Of a stretch of 64,000 nt of DNA, positions 1 to 61,336 are shown piece after piece. The position numbers and the translations under genes are program-made. This DNA comes from an uncultured Planctomycetota bacterium (lineage in GTDB: Bacteria > Planctomycetota > Phycisphaerae > SM23-33). Every line of letters begins with the position of its first letter. Position 1 is the first letter of the stretch. The DNA lies in the NCBI GenBank assembly GCA_903892515.1, contig CAITIS010000031.1, positions 1-64,000 of the forward strand. Reading direction: 5' to 3'. The notes below the pieces were generated by a model. The model was not told the DNA's origin. It saw only the letters and a list, made by a program, of their open reading frames with translations, and ran no database searches.

Positions 1-148
1 AAATACTCATGGGCGAGACGCCCATGCCACGAACAGAAAATACTCATGGGCGAGACGCCCATGCCACGAACAGAAAATACTCATGGGCGAGACGCCCATG
101 CCACGAGCAGAAAATACTCATGGGCGAGACGCCCATGCCACAGACAGA
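1..148. repeat. 4 x 37-bp tandem repeat, each unit with the palindrome CATGGGCG-AGA-CGCCCATG (family A)
   Basis: Unit AAATACTCATGGGCGAGACGCCCATGCCACGAACAGA at 1, 38, 75 and 112; may continue upstream of the window. Confidence 0.97.
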
Positions 149-5961: not shown

Positions 5962-6501
5962 TTATGTATTCGCTTTGCCCGTCAGCGCTTCGATCTTGAT
6001 CGCCACCACAGTCGTTTTGGCCAGGGCCTTGGGGTCATAATCGGCCGTTCCGGGGAAACCGTAGTGGCGCATGATGCAATCCAGGCCGTGGCGGCGCTGG
6101 GCTTCGTCTTGCACGATCGCCGCCACGCCGCCACCCAGCACGCTACGGTAGCGGCAACTGAACTGGCAGGCCGTCGGGCCGGTGACGATTTGGGCGGTTG
6201 AAACCACGCTGAAGCTCACGGATGGGTTCCGCGCCAGCAGCTCCAGCGTGCGCCCTTCGCCGGCGCAATGGAAATACAGCCAGCCCAACCCCTGCGACGG
6301 GCCACTGCCCACGGGCGAGACGCCCGCCAGACGAATGGACGGGACGTCCATGCCACCTGCCGCCGCCGCTTCATACCCAAACGACACCGGCACCACGTAA
6401 GGCCGGTCGGCGTCGCACAGGGCCACGTTGCAGTACAAGGCCTCGTGCAGCACCTGCTGGATGGCCGAAATATCCGTGATCTCTCGTTCGCCGCGTCGCA
6501 T
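5962..6501 (-). CDS. Pyridoxamine 5'-phosphate oxidase family (NimA-like) protein with repeat-derived insertion
   Basis: MRRGEREITDISAIQQVLHEALYCNVALCDADRPYVVPVSFGY...GWLYFHCAGEGRTLELLARNP. Confidence 0.82.
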   Translation of the reverse strand: MRRGEREITDISAIQQVLHEALYCNVALCDADRPYVVPVSFGYEAAAAGGMDVPSIRLAGVSPVGSGPSQGLGWLYFHCAGEGRTLELLARNPSVSFSVVSTAQIVTGPTACQFSCRYRSVLGGGVAAIVQDEAQRRHGLDCIMRHYGFPGTADYDPKALAKTTVVAIKIEALTGKANT

Positions 6502-6556
6502 GTCGATCCTTTGCCGGTATTGACCCCGCGTCAGCACGAACCTACCATGATCTATC

Positions 6557-6958
6557 ATGTCTGCCCAGCACGAAACCGCCCGGGCGACCCCTGCGCAGAC
6601 CAACGGCAAGAAGCCGGTGGCCGGCCTGTTCACTATGATCGGCTCGTGCCTGCTGCTGGGCACGGTGCTGCTGATGGTGCGCTTCGCCGTGCCGCACTGG
6701 CAGGAACTGTACGCCAGCCACTTTGGCCAGAACGTGCCGGCACTGACGCGCTGCGTCTTTGGCTGCTCCTGCGCCATGCACGACCAGCCCTGCGTCCTGC
6801 CCATCGCCGGAGTGGTGCTGGTCGGCGTGATGGGCCTGCCCCTGGTGTGGCGTTCGCCGGCCAACCTGGTAATCGCCCTGGGCGTGCTGGCGGTGGGGCT
6901 GGCCATGCTGGGCGTGATCCTGGCCTCGACCATCTTGCCCATAACGGGTGTGCTGTAG
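6557..6958 (+). CDS. Small integral membrane protein, unknown function
   Basis: 133 aa with several hydrophobic segments; stop overlaps the next GTG start (TAGTG). Confidence 0.6.
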   Translation: MSAQHETARATPAQTNGKKPVAGLFTMIGSCLLLGTVLLMVRFAVPHWQELYASHFGQNVPALTRCVFGCSCAMHDQPCVLPIAGVVLVGVMGLPLVWRSPANLVIALGVLAVGLAMLGVILASTILPITGVL

Positions 6959-8631
6959 TGAAGCCTGCCGGGGGCGACAAATCGCCGCGCAGTGCTGCTG
7001 CCTCCAAGGCTCACTGTCGCGCGCTGGCCGAGACCGCCATCGAGCTGTTCAATCGCCTTGGCCACGTGCATGGCCTGGTCAAGACGGCCAGATCGCTGCT
7101 GCCGGCACTGGCCCGGCTGTACGTGGGTGCGAACTTGGGCGAGGTCCTGGCCAACGAGAAGGACCTCGCCGCCTGCCAGCTTGGCCTGTTGCGCCGCTGC
7201 GCTGCCCTGCTGCGGCGTCGGCCGGCGGCCAGCGATATCCAGACTGCCTCACGCCCGCCTTGGGGCGATAACAGCCAGTTGAAAAACGTAGCACGGGCGT
7301 CTCGCCCGTGGTTCAACGACGCGAAACTGGCCAAAATACTCATGGGCGAGACGCCCATGCTACAAAGGCAAGCACTTCTTCAACGGGCTGCTAAGAGTAC
7401 AACGGAAGGACGAATCATCACCGCCGAGGGCGGCTGTGCTACGGGCGAAGTCAACGCGGCCGGAGGGCTGCTGGACCTGCTGCGCCTGGCCGATGAACTG
7501 CTCAGGCTGGGCGGCGGCAAGGTCAAGCTCATCCCCTGCGACGGTCCTGCCGGCGCCGAGTTGCTGGCCCGCGTGAAGCGCCAGCCCGAAGCCCAACTGC
7601 ACCCGCCGGCCTGGATTGACTCGCTGCGCGTAAGCACGACAACGCCGCACGAGCCTCCCCCGTCGGCACAGCGCTGGGCGGTGCTGATATGCCAGCGACA
7701 GCACCAGCGTTTCATGGCCCGCCTGCCCGGCATGGTGAGCCCCGACGACGAATACGTCCACGAACTGCGCGTGGCCCTTCGCCGCCTGCGCAGCGCCGTC
7801 AAGGTATTCTCCGACGTGCTGCCGCCGCCCCTGGTGGGCATGCGTGGGCACCTGCGCACGTGGGCAAGAATGCTTTCCCCGCTGCGCGACGATGACATCT
7901 TCATCGCCTTCTTGCAGCGGTATATCGGCCATCACACCGGGGAAGAGGCGCCGGCGACGTTGCTTGGGCACATCCGGCGGCAGCGGGCCCGACGGCTGGT
8001 TCAGGCGCGCCGATTCTTCTCTTCTCCAGCCTTCCTGCGCCAAAGCCGCCAGCTGGGCGAAATCCTCGGCCACGCCCAAAGCCCGAAGGAGTCCGACTCG
8101 CTGGCCGCCCTGGCCGAGCGGCAGGTCAACCGGCATCTGGCCAAGGCGGTCAAGCAGTCCAAGGACATTCGCACGTTGTCTGAAACACAGCTGCACCAGT
8201 TGCGGATTCGCTGCAAGCGGCTGCGGTACGCCTGCGAGTTCTTCGAGCCCGCCGACGCCAAGCGGCTGGGCAAGCTGGCCGACGCCGCCCAGGCCATGCA
8301 GGACCACATCGGCGAACATCGCGATGCCGCCGTGTTCCTGGCGAAGGTGCGGGAATTCCAGGCCGCCGGCCGACGGAGCCCCGCAGGCCGAGGCAGCGTC
8401 CGAGCCCGCCAGAGCCCCGCCGGTCGCGCCGGCAGCCGTCAGACCACCAGCGGCCGCGGGACAATTCAGGACCTCGACGAGCTGGTCCAAACCCTGCAAA
8501 AACAGCAGAGCCGAGAGTTTGCCAAGATCGCCAGAGCGTGGCGGGAACTCCGCCGCCAGGGTGGCCGGAAATGTCATGTGCAGTTGCGCGTTGCCCAGTG
8601 CTGGGATTTGCGGCAGACTAGCGTTATCTAG
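6958..8631 (+). CDS. CHAD domain protein, possibly with a degenerate Ppx/GppA-like HD region N-terminal
   Basis: QRHQRFMARLPGMVSPDDEYVHELRVALRRLRSAVKVF...LRDDDIFIAFL...LHQLRIRCKRLRYACEFFE; GTG start at 6958. Confidence 0.75.
   Translation: MKPAGGDKSPRSAAASKAHCRALAETAIELFNRLGHVHGLVKTARSLLPALARLYVGANLGEVLANEKDLAACQLGLLRRCAALLRRRPAASDIQTASRPPWGDNSQLKNVARASRPWFNDAKLAKILMGETPMLQRQALLQRAAKSTTEGRIITAEGGCATGEVNAAGGLLDLLRLADELLRLGGGKVKLIPCDGPAGAELLARVKRQPEAQLHPPAWIDSLRVSTTTPHEPPPSAQRWAVLICQRQHQRFMARLPGMVSPDDEYVHELRVALRRLRSAVKVFSDVLPPPLVGMRGHLRTWARMLSPLRDDDIFIAFLQRYIGHHTGEEAPATLLGHIRRQRARRLVQARRFFSSPAFLRQSRQLGEILGHAQSPKESDSLAALAERQVNRHLAKAVKQSKDIRTLSETQLHQLRIRCKRLRYACEFFEPADAKRLGKLADAAQAMQDHIGEHRDAAVFLAKVREFQAAGRRSPAGRGSVRARQSPAGRAGSRQTTSGRGTIQDLDELVQTLQKQQSREFAKIARAWRELRRQGGRKCHVQLRVAQCWDLRQTSVI
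7288..7363. repeat. Family A hairpin doublet (GTAGCA...TGCTAC), 76 bp, inside the CHAD CDS
   Basis: GTAGCACGGGCG-TCT-CGCCCGTG / 30-nt spacer / CATGGGCG-AGA-CGCCCATGCTAC. Confidence 0.93.
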
Positions 8632-8642
8632 AATCACTGTTC

Positions 8643-8806
8643 GTGACATGGGCGTCTCGCCCATGCGTGTCACGGCCGTCCCGGCCGTGTGCTTCTGTCG
8701 TGACACGAGCGTCTCGCCCGCGTCGTCGCCAAATCATGGGCGAGACGCCCATGTCACGCATGGGCGAGACGCCCATGTCACCCACGGGCGAGACGCCCGT
8801 GTCACA
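8643..8806. repeat. Cluster of six family A hairpins
   Basis: Hairpins at 8647, 8671, 8704 (imperfect), 8735, 8759, 8783; flanks GTGACA/TGTCAC. Confidence 0.93.
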
Positions 8807-24500: not shown

Positions 24501-26703
24501 CGTGTGCGACTGAGATGGTCAACCCGTCATCGCTAGCGACAGCCGGGGCGAAGCTGAAACCGTGCTTCTCTGTGCCCATAGACTCAGAGCCACCGTGCGA
24601 CTCGGCCAGAGAGGTCCACGGCCCGCCACCGACCGCATAGCGGAGCGTGGCTTTCTTGACGTGCTCCGAGAACGTCTGCGTTAGAGCCCCGACGGCCCGC
24701 CCCTTGCCGTCGGCGGTGGCGCCTCCCCCGCCGCTGCCTGAGGGCTCAAAGCTCCACTCGCTTGCAAACCCTTCGGGCACGTTGCCCAGAACGACGGCAA
24801 ACTCATACGCCCGTTCGCCCGCTTGCGGGTTGGCGATGCTTGTGGCCTTGTCGTACGGCAGCCGGTCCAACGCCGACCCGTCCGGCCGCCATGCCCTCTT
24901 GCCTTGCGACGGATTCTTCGCCACGCCCACCAACTCGACCGTCACGCCGCTGGGCAACGTGACCTTGAACGGCGAGGCCGGCTGCGTGGTGGGCGAGACC
25001 AGGATCGACCGGGCGCGGGGCGCGTTCTCACTGCCCACCGCGCCTACGACGTACTTGGTGGTCAGTCCCGGGCTGCTCCCGCAGCCACGCGCCTCGAGGT
25101 CAAAAGAGAGGCCGGTCTTTCCATCTCCCATATCACCGTTGACATAGATCGCTTCGGGATGTGCCTGCAAGCCATTGGAAGTGCTGTCCAAGATCTGGGG
25201 CAATGCCAGCCACACCGGCCCGTTCAACTCACTTGATCCGTCGGGTGTGACGTGAACAACTTTCCAGTGATAACCATTTGGGAGTTTGATCTGCTTCATA
25301 ACCTTCGCGCCGTCGCGAAGTTCAACGACGCCCTGCGCCACGTCAATCACCAGCCGGACGTTATAAGTGGCTAGGTCCTCTTCGCGCTGGGGCTGCGTGG
25401 CCTGCCATGCATGCCATATTTCATCGATCTGCGGCGAAAGCGCCTTCCAATCCCGTTGTGCCTTCCTGTGGTCCACGCGCACGCCCCCGGCCTCTCCGCC
25501 GCTGCAACTCACCCACAGGCACGCGCCCAGCAACGCGGTGAGCAGGACCAGGCCCGTCATCGGCCAGGTGCGGAGACGATCGCCTTGTTCCTCGATGTCC
25601 AGGCCCAGCAGGCGGCGGATTCGGTCCGTCAGGTCGCGGGCGTGGGAGCCGCGGAGGGCCACCATCGCTTCACGCGGATTCCCGAAGCTCGGCAGCATCT
25701 GGCGGGACTCTTCGATGGCGGCCAGGGCCTCGGCGTAACCGATGCGGTTGCCGTACGCCGCCACGGCCAGGTCGTCGCAGCAGCGTTCGCGTTCGATCCG
25801 CATCTGCCGGCTGATCCACCACAGGCCGGGGTGGTAGAAGAAGAGCATTTCCACAGCCGCCTGGAGCAGGTTGACGAGGTAGTCGCCGCGGCCGATGTGG
25901 GCCAGTTCGTGAGCCAGCACGGCCTGGAGTTGGGCGGGCGTGAGGTTCGTGATGGCTGAGAGCGGCAGCAGGATCACGGGCTTGAGATGGCCGATCACCA
26001 TCGGCGTGGACACCAGCATCGACTGCAAGACGCGGACGCGCCGCCGCACGCCCAGGCGGTCCATGAGCCGATGCGCCAGCGACTCGATGGCCTCGCTGAC
26101 TGGGTGAGTGCCCAGGACCCGCAGCCGCTGGGCGGCGATGTACCCGCCCATGCGCCAAACGCCCATCGCCAGCACCCCGGCCAGCCACGCGGCCGTCAGG
26201 TAGCCGACGGAATCATTCAGGGCCCCCCGAGCCCTTTGAAGGAGCGGGTGCGAAGGTGCGGCCGAAACGACCACAGCCGAGGGCGGCTGTGCCACGTAAG
26301 GCGACACAGCCGAGGGCGGTACCCGTGTCGCGGGCGTCTCGCCCGCGCGGCTCACAGCCGAGGGCGGCTGTGCTACCGGAACGTTTGTGACGTGGTCGCT
26401 GGACGCCGCGACCACGGCACCCGACTGGGCCACGGCACCCGGCTGTGCCACGGGAACCACCACCGTAGATGGCGGCTGCGGTGCGCGCGGCTCGACCCTG
26501 ACAAAGGTCAGCACCGCCATGGCCACCACAGCCGCCATGCACACCCCGGCCGCCAGGTAGCGGGCCTGCGGGCTGCGCCGGCGCAAGAGCACATTCATCG
26601 CCAGCAACATGCCCGAGGCCAGCGCGATCTGCCAGAGCGAGTGCAGCAGCGTCCAACCCAGCCGAACCACCACATCCGATGACAGCAATTCTGACGCGTT
26701 CAT
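21514..26703 (-). CDS. Giant M56 (BlaR1/MecR1-like) metallopeptidase with long C-terminal extension
   Basis: QAVLAHELAHIGRGDYLVNLLQAAVEMLFFYHPGLWWISRQMRIERERCCDDLAV; overlaps blaI stop by 4 bp; 1729 aa. Confidence 0.82.
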   Translation of the reverse strand: MNASELLSSDVVVRLGWTLLHSLWQIALASGMLLAMNVLLRRRSPQARYLAAGVCMAAVVAMAVLTFVRVEPRAPQPPSTVVVPVAQPGAVAQSGAVVAASSDHVTNVPVAQPPSAVSRAGETPATRVPPSAVSPYVAQPPSAVVVSAAPSHPLLQRARGALNDSVGYLTAAWLAGVLAMGVWRMGGYIAAQRLRVLGTHPVSEAIESLAHRLMDRLGVRRRVRVLQSMLVSTPMVIGHLKPVILLPLSAITNLTPAQLQAVLAHELAHIGRGDYLVNLLQAAVEMLFFYHPGLWWISRQMRIERERCCDDLAVAAYGNRIGYAEALAAIEESRQMLPSFGNPREAMVALRGSHARDLTDRIRRLLGLDIEEQGDRLRTWPMTGLVLLTALLGACLWVSCSGGEAGGVRVDHRKAQRDWKALSPQIDEIWHAWQATQPQREEDLATYNVRLVIDVAQGVVELRDGAKVMKQIKLPNGYHWKVVHVTPDGSSELNGPVWLALPQILDSTSNGLQAHPEAIYVNGDMGDGKTGLSFDLEARGCGSSPGLTTKYVVGAVGSENAPRARSILVSPTTQPASPFKVTLPSGVTVELVGVAKNPSQGKRAWRPDGSALDRLPYDKATSIANPQAGERAYEFAVVLGNVPEGFASEWSFEPSGSGGGGATADGKGRAVGALTQTFSEHVKKATLRYAVGGGPWTSLAESHGGSESMGTEKHGFSFAPAVASDDGLTISVAHDVFDQATRLVAIDKAGKTIMPSNSNWTSGGKVRMNNATFRSLAKSDVDHFELQGQALQWAEFKDVMLQPGAAGKAAREEVTSQPASAAATDASAKQLMQLSREMLRLRLLSMIDANDRMSDDGRLPESNNLAQVLAETGDHVDQTWRLHAIAKLMDWADRDEVRMRLRELATEPNLFLKLTAMQVLILQGQPVDAKFLRRVAGGKERDLVVSQSTFERNEAAWALLAMGERLPADVVAWGFNGDPTLNEIQALQQKGEQVGPAFLLDLAREVDVFRLNIRDRHMARTAEKLVEQALFQRPVDEATLRQVLRGALEISYTGFGQDRNDYRPIRLVRQQAGEVPNAWMDKLTAPLKRAPIYDTRIVFAVPEELRGERGRLVLEADKHIRAGLRRLSAQYPFMQGAQPTSAPAGLGQMHLSARHGDSHTDASVPQEQRFSIVAIIEPPREDEWQTSTTSPLHFLGLRETPGASAGAPGLAKELEKLRSEAMEPLLELEVRAGEIIVAGLPQAAGYPAASQPASQPTSQPETAWSLPHEGIQVRVRAEKQIWQEGETPELRWDIRNVGTRESLHVLEGQLFTQLEVDGTWYRWAIPKTLEPVASSEFTKLAPLGVGVTVSDQLVALSPTWIPAKPEELQWNPSLSIDPGWNRPRLQLRPGPHTVRLAFMVRPIGGAIRVVSEPLNFTIVGGTGVPAHAEAASQPASQPSSELDQQARAWVEDFFAHHYRDVTARQSIEWGQAIKQANGNIVIRYKYLATTWDWDADKLTNTVEDEFIFKPDGALVGKKQLSATTIAKSAILLSDTLRQQRDLLLSQADASLRIGLLKLAEKYPQLKRTNHGPLADVLSGHSAPGEVRVGVGLYPRSAGKSDGIDGDVPERDRYMFAVVIHDAKAIEQLMTLPVYPHLRLTQATTRIAAGDPQLEADLLALRDESMSGLVRLENELAAASSSQSNVGWTERSPSSGQASPTRGSNGGTRLQTAEPRPTLQAVTPQPATRP
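21550..21655. repeat. Family D hairpin doublet inside the M56 CDS 3' end
   Basis: GTAGGGTGGGCCGAG...GGTGGGACTCGCTTGCCC-agaagac-GGGCTGCGCTCGGTCCACCC. Confidence 0.82.
26265..26425. repeat. Cluster of family B (CACAGCCG-AGGG-CGGCTGTG), family A and TGGACGCC-loop hairpins in the M56 CDS
   Basis: Several ACAGCCGAGGGCGGCTGT-type units, CGCGGGCG-TCT-CGCCCGCG, CGTGGTCGC-TGGACGCC-GCGACCACG. Confidence 0.92.
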
Positions 26704-27302: not shown

Positions 27303-27356
27303 TCGAAACAGACGTTTGGCAACCGTTCCAGCAGCCCGTTGAACAAGGCTTCGTTC

Positions 27357-27382
27357 GTGGCGCGGGCGAGACGCCCGCGACA
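27357..27382. repeat. Family A hairpin, stem variant CGCGGGCG-AGA-CGCCCGCG
   Basis: gtggcgcgggcgagacgcccgcgacac. Confidence 0.9.
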
Positions 27383-27406
27383 CACATTCAGCGGACTACC
27401 ACGGCC

Positions 27407-39261: not shown

Positions 39262-39290
39262 ACCACAGCCGAGGGCGGCTGTGCCACGAA
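39262..39290. repeat. Family B hairpin
   Basis: gaccacagccgagggcggctgtgccacg. Confidence 0.9.
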
Positions 39291-39498
39291 ACACTCACCG
39301 CCGGGGGCGGCTTGTGCGACGAATCCAGGCGGTTATGAAACCGGTTGTATGCAAGAGCCCCAGGTTCCACCGTCGCATTCGCACCGCGCAAAAAGAAGGT
39401 GGGTCGAGCTTTCGCCCGGCCCACCCGTTGGCTTGCTTCTCTGACCTCCGGCCTCTGGCCTCTGGCCTCCGACCTCCGACCTCTGACCTTGCCCTGCT

Positions 39499-54038: not shown

Positions 54039-54070
54039 TCGCCCGAAGGGGCGGCCGCTGCGGTCGCCAC

Positions 54071-54146
54071 GTAGCATGGGCGTCTCGCCCATGAGTATTT
54101 CGGCTATTCCGGCATCATTGGGCCACGGGCGGGACGCCCGTGCTAC
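54071..54146. repeat. Family A hairpin doublet, 76 bp
   Basis: GTAGCATGGGCG-TCT-CGCCCATG / 30-nt spacer / CACGGGCG-GGA-CGCCCGTGCTAC. Confidence 0.93.
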
Positions 54147-54163
54147 GGTTACGAATCCGACCC

Positions 54164-60291: not shown

Positions 60292-61299
60292 TTACTCTTC
60301 GCTGCGGCGCGGGGCGTCGGTGCGGGCGTAGGCCTCCACGATATTCTGCACCAGCCGGTGGCGGACGATGTCCTGCCGGTCCAACTGGCTGAAGACCAGC
60401 CCGTGCACGCCCGCCAGCCGGCGACGGGCGTCGATGAGCCCGCTGGCCACGTTGGGCGGCAGGTCGATCTGCGAATCGTCGCCGGTGATGATCATCTTTG
60501 AGCCATGCCCCATTCGCGTCAGGAACATCAGCATCTGCGGCACGGTCGTGTTCTGGGCTTCATCCAGGATGATGACCGAATCGTTGAGAGTCCGCCCGCG
60601 CATGAACGCCAGCGGGACGACCTCGATAATGTCATTGGCCATCAGCCGGCGGCTCTGCTCGAAATCCATCATGTCGTGCAGGCTGTCGAACAGCGGCCGC
60701 AGGTACGGGTTGACCTTGGCCTGCAAGTCCCCCGGCAGGAAGCCCAGTTTCTCGCCCGCCTCCACCGCTGGCCGGGCCAGCACCACGCGCTTGATCTGGG
60801 CGCGCTTGAGCATGTTCACCGCCACGGCCACCGCCAGGTACGTTTTGCCGGTACCGGCCGGGCCGACGCAGAAAACCATGTCGTGCCGCCGCATCGCCTC
60901 GATGTACTGCCGCTGTCCGGCTGAACGCGGCTTGATGACCTGCCCGCCGTACACGTCGATAACGTCGATGGCTTCCTGGGCCTCTTCCTCTACGGCCGCT
61001 GCCGCCAGGGCCGACGCCACCGCCTCAGCCGTCACGGACTGGCTGTGCCGCATGTGCCGCTGCAATTCGGCCAGCACGGAGGCGGCGCGTGAAACGTTCT
61101 TGGCCCCGCCGGTGATCTTGACGGTCTCGCCGCGGGCGAACATCTGTACGCCCAGCACATCCCGAATGGTGCGCAGATGCGAATCGCCGGGCCCGAACAA
61201 CACGCCCCTGGCCTCAGGACGCTCCAATGTCACCGTCAGTTCCAAGGTTTCACTTCCTCGCGAAGTAGCACGGGCGTCTCGCCCGTGATTCGTTGCCAA
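60292..61299 (-). CDS. PhoH family ATPase; true start uncertain
   Basis: GPAGTGKTYLAVAVAVNML; VLARPAVEAGEKLGFLPGDLQAKVNPYLRPLFD; ILDEAQNTT; first residues lie in repeat DNA. Confidence 0.92.
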   Translation of the reverse strand: MATNHGRDARATSRGSETLELTVTLERPEARGVLFGPGDSHLRTIRDVLGVQMFARGETVKITGGAKNVSRAASVLAELQRHMRHSQSVTAEAVASALAAAAVEEEAQEAIDVIDVYGGQVIKPRSAGQRQYIEAMRRHDMVFCVGPAGTGKTYLAVAVAVNMLKRAQIKRVVLARPAVEAGEKLGFLPGDLQAKVNPYLRPLFDSLHDMMDFEQSRRLMANDIIEVVPLAFMRGRTLNDSVIILDEAQNTTVPQMLMFLTRMGHGSKMIITGDDSQIDLPPNVASGLIDARRRLAGVHGLVFSQLDRQDIVRHRLVQNIVEAYARTDAPRRSEE

Positions 61300-61336
61300 A
61301 CCGGCCGAAAACTCATGGGCGAGACGCCCATGCTAC
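61265..61336. repeat. Family A hairpin doublet, 72 bp
   Basis: GTAGCACGGGCG-TCT-CGCCCGTG / 26-nt spacer / CATGGGCG-AGA-CGCCCATGCTAC. Confidence 0.93.

Follow-up and report, generated by a model that had tools for sequence, protein, structure and literature searches.

A stretch of 64,000 nucleotides of contig C31, hereafter the window, carries three pairs of inverted hairpins that open with GTAG and close with CTAC (family A). REP doublets are usually read as RAYT-driven elements, and the original prediction recognised REPIN architecture in these three while seeing no RAYT gene. The locus raises the question of what the mobile unit is, and of which transposase spreads it.

REP-type doublets are dispersed through the genome

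The coordinates and lengths given for the three doublets (76, 76 and 72 bp, in the order 7288, 54071 and 61265) proved exact, and the loops and spacer endings attributed to them are present:

7288..7363, plus strand: REP doublet GTAG...CTAC, core of a type I element (see below)
54071..54146, minus strand: REP doublet GTAG...CTAC, with the CAC hairpin at 54124-54142 and the CAT hairpin at 54075-54093
61265..61336, plus strand: REP doublet GTAG...CTAC, 72 bp, with no recognisable scaffold

The 54071-54146 doublet lies in the convergent gap 54039-54163, between a 558-aa ORF on the plus strand and an abhydrolase gene on the minus strand, and 61265-61336 is flanked by cdsA-like and phoH genes. With up to 3 mismatches allowed, the half-element GTAGCAYGGGCGTCTCGCCCRTG occurred 14 times in the window, versus 0.00 expected from shuffles. 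In the whole genome (G000, Phycisphaerae; 4.89 Mb in 159 contigs, 91% complete) there were 57 exact matches to the 23-mer half-element and 28 to the full doublet pattern, and 0 of either in the reversed control. Identical 76-mers are present at three unrelated sites (C46, C51 and C133), and near-identical copies have 100-bp flanks whose unaligned identity is 0.28-0.53.

GTAG REP dimers and REPINs have been described as short hairpins preceded by GTAG and paired head to head around a spacer (PMC3733652, PMC3116915, PMC2817692), and one of these sources already lists the PVC superphylum as a host of GTAG repeats (PMC3733652). Here GTAG lies directly 5' of the hairpin in all 28 doublets, by construction of the search, and the two REPs stand head-to-head around a spacer and can form a single hairpin. 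The tag and the head-to-head pairing identify the doublets as REP dimers of REPIN-like organisation, and the paired hairpins are genuine REP-type repeats.

The two hairpins had been thought to occur in either order, which reflects insertion orientation only: once all copies are turned one way, the CAC/GTG hairpin, with loop TCT or TCC, comes first at the 5' end in 28 of 28. The 3'-end hairpin is of CAT type throughout and CAT itself in 26 of them, usually beside a spacer ending in ..GCCGAAA.ACT, and the spacer measures 26-32 nt in most copies and 18 nt in one. Covariation of the stems was not borne out. Each of the five stems named is indeed perfectly complementary somewhere in the window, but among 26 distinct aligned sequences 0 pairs had changed on both sides; homologous copies have nearly invariant stems, a result that applies to the stem positions left free by the search pattern, which fixed some of them.

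Most doublets appear to be the core of a longer element

The repeat extends beyond the doublet. In an alignment of the flanks of the 28 doublets, conservation crossed the GTAG and CTAC ends, reached some 20-31 bp further out, and stopped at CTAG-type ends lying 20 and 19-31 bp outside, beyond which the flanks are unrelated. The flanks of 25 of the 28 doublets extend into one of two terminal-inverted-repeat (TIR) scaffolds. Type I (11 copies), with flanks CTAGCAGCCCGTTGAAGAAC and ..CACTTCTTCAACGGGCTGCTAG, has the TIR core CAGCCCGTTGAA... and measures 119 bp end to end; type II (14 copies, more decayed), with flanks CTAGAACTGGTTTCATAACC and GTTGTGAAACCAGTTCTAG, has the TIR AACYGGTTTCATAAC... and spans about 107 bp with a GTAG core, in the same layout as scaffold I. 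The other three copies, 61265-61336 included, were left unassigned in this alignment, although one of them (L289) has a type I arm on one side. What had been described as REPIN architecture therefore stands for the anatomy (GTAG tag, head-to-head pair, steady spacer, dispersed multicopy occurrence) but not for the doublet as the mobile unit: a REPIN doublet is itself what replicates, with unrelated flanks beyond it, whereas here the flanks are conserved as far as the TIR ends in 25 of 28 copies.

The window holds the following parts of these scaffolds:

7272..7390, plus strand: complete 119-bp type I REP-MITE, made up of TIR CAGCC.GTTGAA, doublet 7288-7363, long arm and TIR
7268..7271, plus strand: left flanking tetramer ATAA, an imperfect target duplication of CTAA
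7391..7394, plus strand: right flanking tetramer CTAA
54147..54158, minus strand: CAC-side arm of scaffold II, degraded: GGATTCGTAACC (consensus GGTTTCATAACC)
54059..54070, minus strand: CAT-side arm of scaffold II, degraded: GTGGCGACCGCA (consensus GTTGTGAAACCA)
27331..27397, plus strand: scaffold I remnant with one REP hairpin, CGCGGGCG, tagged GTGT on the minus strand

Both arms of the 54071 copy together match the scaffold II consensus, which includes this copy, at 17 of 24 positions, and 0 of 50,000 random placements did as well; this copy is probably an old, eroded scaffold II member. The 61265 copy matched neither scaffold I nor scaffold II arms. The 7272-7390 element lies in frame within an ORF at window positions 6268-8631, the C-terminal part of which is a CHAD domain and the upstream part possibly coding. 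Elements built on scaffold I in G000 and its relative G007 are 117-121 bp long, most of them 119 bp, whichever of three REP cores they hold, and 119 bp plus the duplication makes 123 bp, or 41 codons.

The 7271-7394 region folds as one long hairpin (z -7.2) and the 54071 copy occupies most of its 125-bp convergent gap, which would suit elements kept mainly as regulatory hairpins, either bidirectional terminators or mRNA stabilisers, whose mobility is past. We consider this unlikely as the main explanation, since the identical 76-mers at three sites point to recent dispersal and the family is patchy among relatives, the GTAG 23-mer being present in 15 of 120 genomes.

Type I elements have target duplications and share their ends with an IS1182-like insertion sequence

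Scaffold I is bordered by 4-bp NTAN duplications. A first duplication test relied on loose TIR matching, which admitted chance pairs, and was rerun on clean type I elements (20 of G000 and 7 of G007, one element being counted twice). The tetramers outside the TIR core were identical in 13 of 27 cases, against 4.0 expected after shuffling (p about 1e-5). Among those that match are CTAA, TTAG, CTAC and CTAT; these are non-palindromic and so cannot belong to a symmetric end. For type II, 2 of 24 tetramer pairs matched, which is not above chance under loose TIR matching. On C51, a type II element next to a type I copy terminates in the very CTAG that flanks the latter, which is what insertion of the type I element into that CTAG, with its duplication, would produce.

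The ends of scaffold I also border an insertion sequence (IS) in G000. Its two ends, encoding the first 55 and the last 85 residues of a transposase, are found at several contig ends, as those of a collapsed multicopy element would be, and the two fragments gave no match to Pfam and NCBIfam. A whole IS is present in the relative G035, with the TIR TAGCAGCCCGTTGAA at both ends and a 473-aa frame that has a DUF772 domain (E=1e-19) and IS1182 as its best NCBIfam match (E=2e-45; 155 bits, below the curated cut-off of 270). Type I elements, which are dispersed, 119 bp long, without a transposase gene and unrelated in their outer flanks, have the form of MITEs and have their TIRs in common with this autonomous IS, IS1182-like by a score under the curated cut-off. 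No autonomous partner was found for scaffold II. Precedents in the literature are an IS1182 element flanked by 4-bp direct repeats and a MITE of 159 bp that derives from IS1182 and likewise has 4-bp repeats (PMC3281130, PMC11578231).

The core, the scaffold, its boundaries, the type I target duplications and an IS with matching ends were all observed directly, and family A is probably a chimeric miniature transposon, with a REPIN-like core inside the TIRs of a DDE-type element; that is, IS1182-type MITEs with REP-dimer cores. Counting against this reading are the IS1182 score under the cut-off, the type II tetramers at chance level, the lack of a scaffold II partner among the sequences searched, and the doublets that have no scaffold. 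Most doublets appear to be the core of a longer TIR element and to have spread as IS1182-type passengers, not solely via their own REP transposase. The IS1182-type transposase would move the composites in trans, and the long hairpin, after insertion, may influence the 3' ends of transcripts nearby in the manner of REPs.

Cores and scaffolds have been combined more than once

Scaffold I in G000 also encloses GTGT-CGCGGGCG doublets, and scaffold II also encloses GTGG-CACAGCCG doublets. The GTAG cores of types I and II have homologous spacers (z 14), and in G007 scaffold I surrounds a GTAG doublet that has an unrelated spacer and the opposite orientation relative to the arms. That homologous cores occur in two scaffolds, and unrelated ones in a single scaffold, indicates that cores and scaffolds were combined more than once, and at least five scaffold-core combinations were counted. 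A third inverted repeat, CTTAGAACGTGTATGAA, encloses some of the GTAG elements of G035; others have none. Several doublets in G035, G025 and G061 have no scaffold or only a short inverted repeat, so that, with the 61265 copy, bare GTAG doublets also exist.

These combinations, and the placement of the cores just inside one TIR, agree with a sequential origin, in which REPINs enter MITE hairpins by means of RAYT and a DDE transposase then spreads the composite. This refines the origin of the chimeric transposon favoured above, and we give it slightly less than an even chance. REP cores would have entered scaffolds several times, perhaps by RAYT-driven insertion at the single-stranded hairpin tip of a MITE. 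However, the intermediate, an empty mini-palindrome, was not found among the TIR pairs listed, recombination between MITEs could swap cores too, and a length of about 119 bp with three different cores is not predicted by random insertion.

Other REP repeats were seen alongside family A. A second REP family has the same stems with GTGN tags (window 8643-8805 and L256-L305); most dispersed GTGN elements consist of four hairpins, GTGA-H-CGTGT-H-spacer-H-ACAC-H-TCAC, and no TIRs were seen in most of these four-hairpin elements. Single GTGG-CATGGGCG hairpins form a tandem 37-bp array at the contig start (window 1-141). Family B hairpins, CACAGCCG-AGGG-CGGCTGTG, lie at window 26272-26372 and 39264-39350, and the latter adjoin a scaffold II end (39332-39350), an arrangement shared by many further copies in the genome.

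RAYT genes and their flanking hairpins

The REP anatomy makes RAYT a candidate enzyme for mobilising the doublets. That no RAYT gene is visible holds for the window but not for the genome, where 14 Y1_Tnp matches were found, one of them on the same contig just beyond the window (C31:78023). A RAYT beside a GTAG-CAYGGGCG hairpin was looked for in G000 and was absent at all 14 Y1 genes. The RAYT-like genes L058 (C10) and L065 (C31:78023) have their own GTAG-GGCGGGC hairpins nearby. The C21 Y1 gene has its own GTGG-CACAGCCG REPs, and the only Y1 gene with the present stem immediately on both sides lies inside valS (C98), where the tags are GTGA and GTGC and the two-plus-two hairpin flanks resemble the scattered four-hairpin GTGN elements.

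Among relatives, RAYTs of the valS-embedded subclass have GTAG-CAYGGGCG hairpins on both sides at L226 and L220, the flanking hairpin of L220 being a one-base stem variant, and upstream at L216 and L211. The strongest Y1 matches in relatives, which are IS200-like, are without REP flanks of the family A stem. A strong match to the RAYT subclass (E below 1e-80) is present in 8 of the 15 genomes with the GTAG 23-mer versus 5 of the 105 without it, a comparison that ignores kinship.

These flanked RAYT genes fit a classical REPIN, in which the GTAG...CTAC doublet is itself mobile, copied by RAYT via single-stranded DNA, and the conserved flanks represent a palindrome favoured as insertion target. 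The REP anatomy of the doublets and the bare doublets of some genomes fit it too, as do the GTAG dimers within palindromes in A. variabilis and the GTAG or CGTC elements within palindromes in T. roseum and H. neapolitanus described in one source (PMC3733652). Such a reading is nevertheless quite improbable: no empty palindrome (a TIR pair about 40-50 bp apart) was present among the TIR places listed, direct 4-bp duplications lie outside the TIRs, the position of the core is fixed within type I copies, and 0 of the 14 Y1 genes in G000 have GTAG-CAYGGGCG hairpins alongside.

RAYT domains lie in frame within essential genes

The RAYT subclass is mostly found as an in-frame insert: when GTDB genomes were scanned, the open frame continued for 100 residues or more on each side of the RAYT at 45 of the 80 best loci. 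In 19 of these 45 the host is a valyl-tRNA synthetase, and all 19 share the insertion point, ahead of TTRPETMLGD. Other hosts are LeuRS and YoaA/DinG (by motif), an EtfB-like protein and, by eye, AlaRS, TsaC, IspG, NadE and DNA methylases. The valS locus of G000 and further loci of the subclass are as follows:

L061:5720-9457 (G000 C98): in-frame RAYT in valS
L127, L131, L128, L130, L126 and L176-L255: further in-frame RAYTs in housekeeping genes

This is the single valS of G000, and it is split between positions 202 and 203 of the ValRS-model profile with no profile position lost. The inserts carry in-frame REPs into housekeeping genes along with the RAYT domain. In 28 members of the subclass the HUH residues, a Trp and Tyr..N do not vary, and the predicted fold of the domain is closest to 4er8, a RAYT bound to a REP hairpin (E=1.1e-7). 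An earlier survey put aside members of unexpected length, taking them for fusions or annotation errors (PMC6006769), and our literature search, of partial coverage, found no account of in-frame RAYTs in essential genes.

RAYTs within essential genes bear on why these single-copy transposases persist. Tentatively, the chimeric transposon can be extended to a nested arrangement of two unrelated transposition systems, in which REPIN cores of a RAYT family are carried by IS1182-type MITEs and RAYT persists as an in-frame domain of essential proteins. A host could not easily lose a RAYT lying in frame in an essential protein, which in G000 is its only valyl-tRNA synthetase. If true, this arrangement would be one concrete answer to why RAYTs that do not mobilise themselves last.

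Comparison with known systems

The TIRs, the 4-bp duplications and the IS1182-like partner suggest that some REP families may spread via an unrelated transposase, which would change how REPIN counts and dynamics are interpreted. No IS1182-REP chimera was found in our literature search of partial coverage. Family A resembles REPINs or HH-type GTAG REP dimers (BIMEs; PMC3116915, PMC3733652) in its GTAG tag, head-to-head hairpins, steady spacer, dispersed multicopy occurrence and the RAYT genes in the genome, and differs from them in being enclosed by the TIRs of another element with 4-bp duplications outside. The GTAG-15 dimers of Anabaena variabilis likewise lie in a conserved palindrome of which no empty form was found (PMC3733652); the passage that describes this palindrome names no transposon ends or duplications, whereas scaffold I shows both. 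MITEPye1 of Paracoccus yeei (PMC11578231), with 159 bp, 18-bp TIRs and 4-bp direct repeats, is alike in having the TIRs of an IS1182-type IS, 4-bp direct repeats, a length of about 120-160 bp, no ORF and a long stem-loop. Unlike MITEPye1, family A has a REP doublet as its interior, and several REP families occupy one scaffold.
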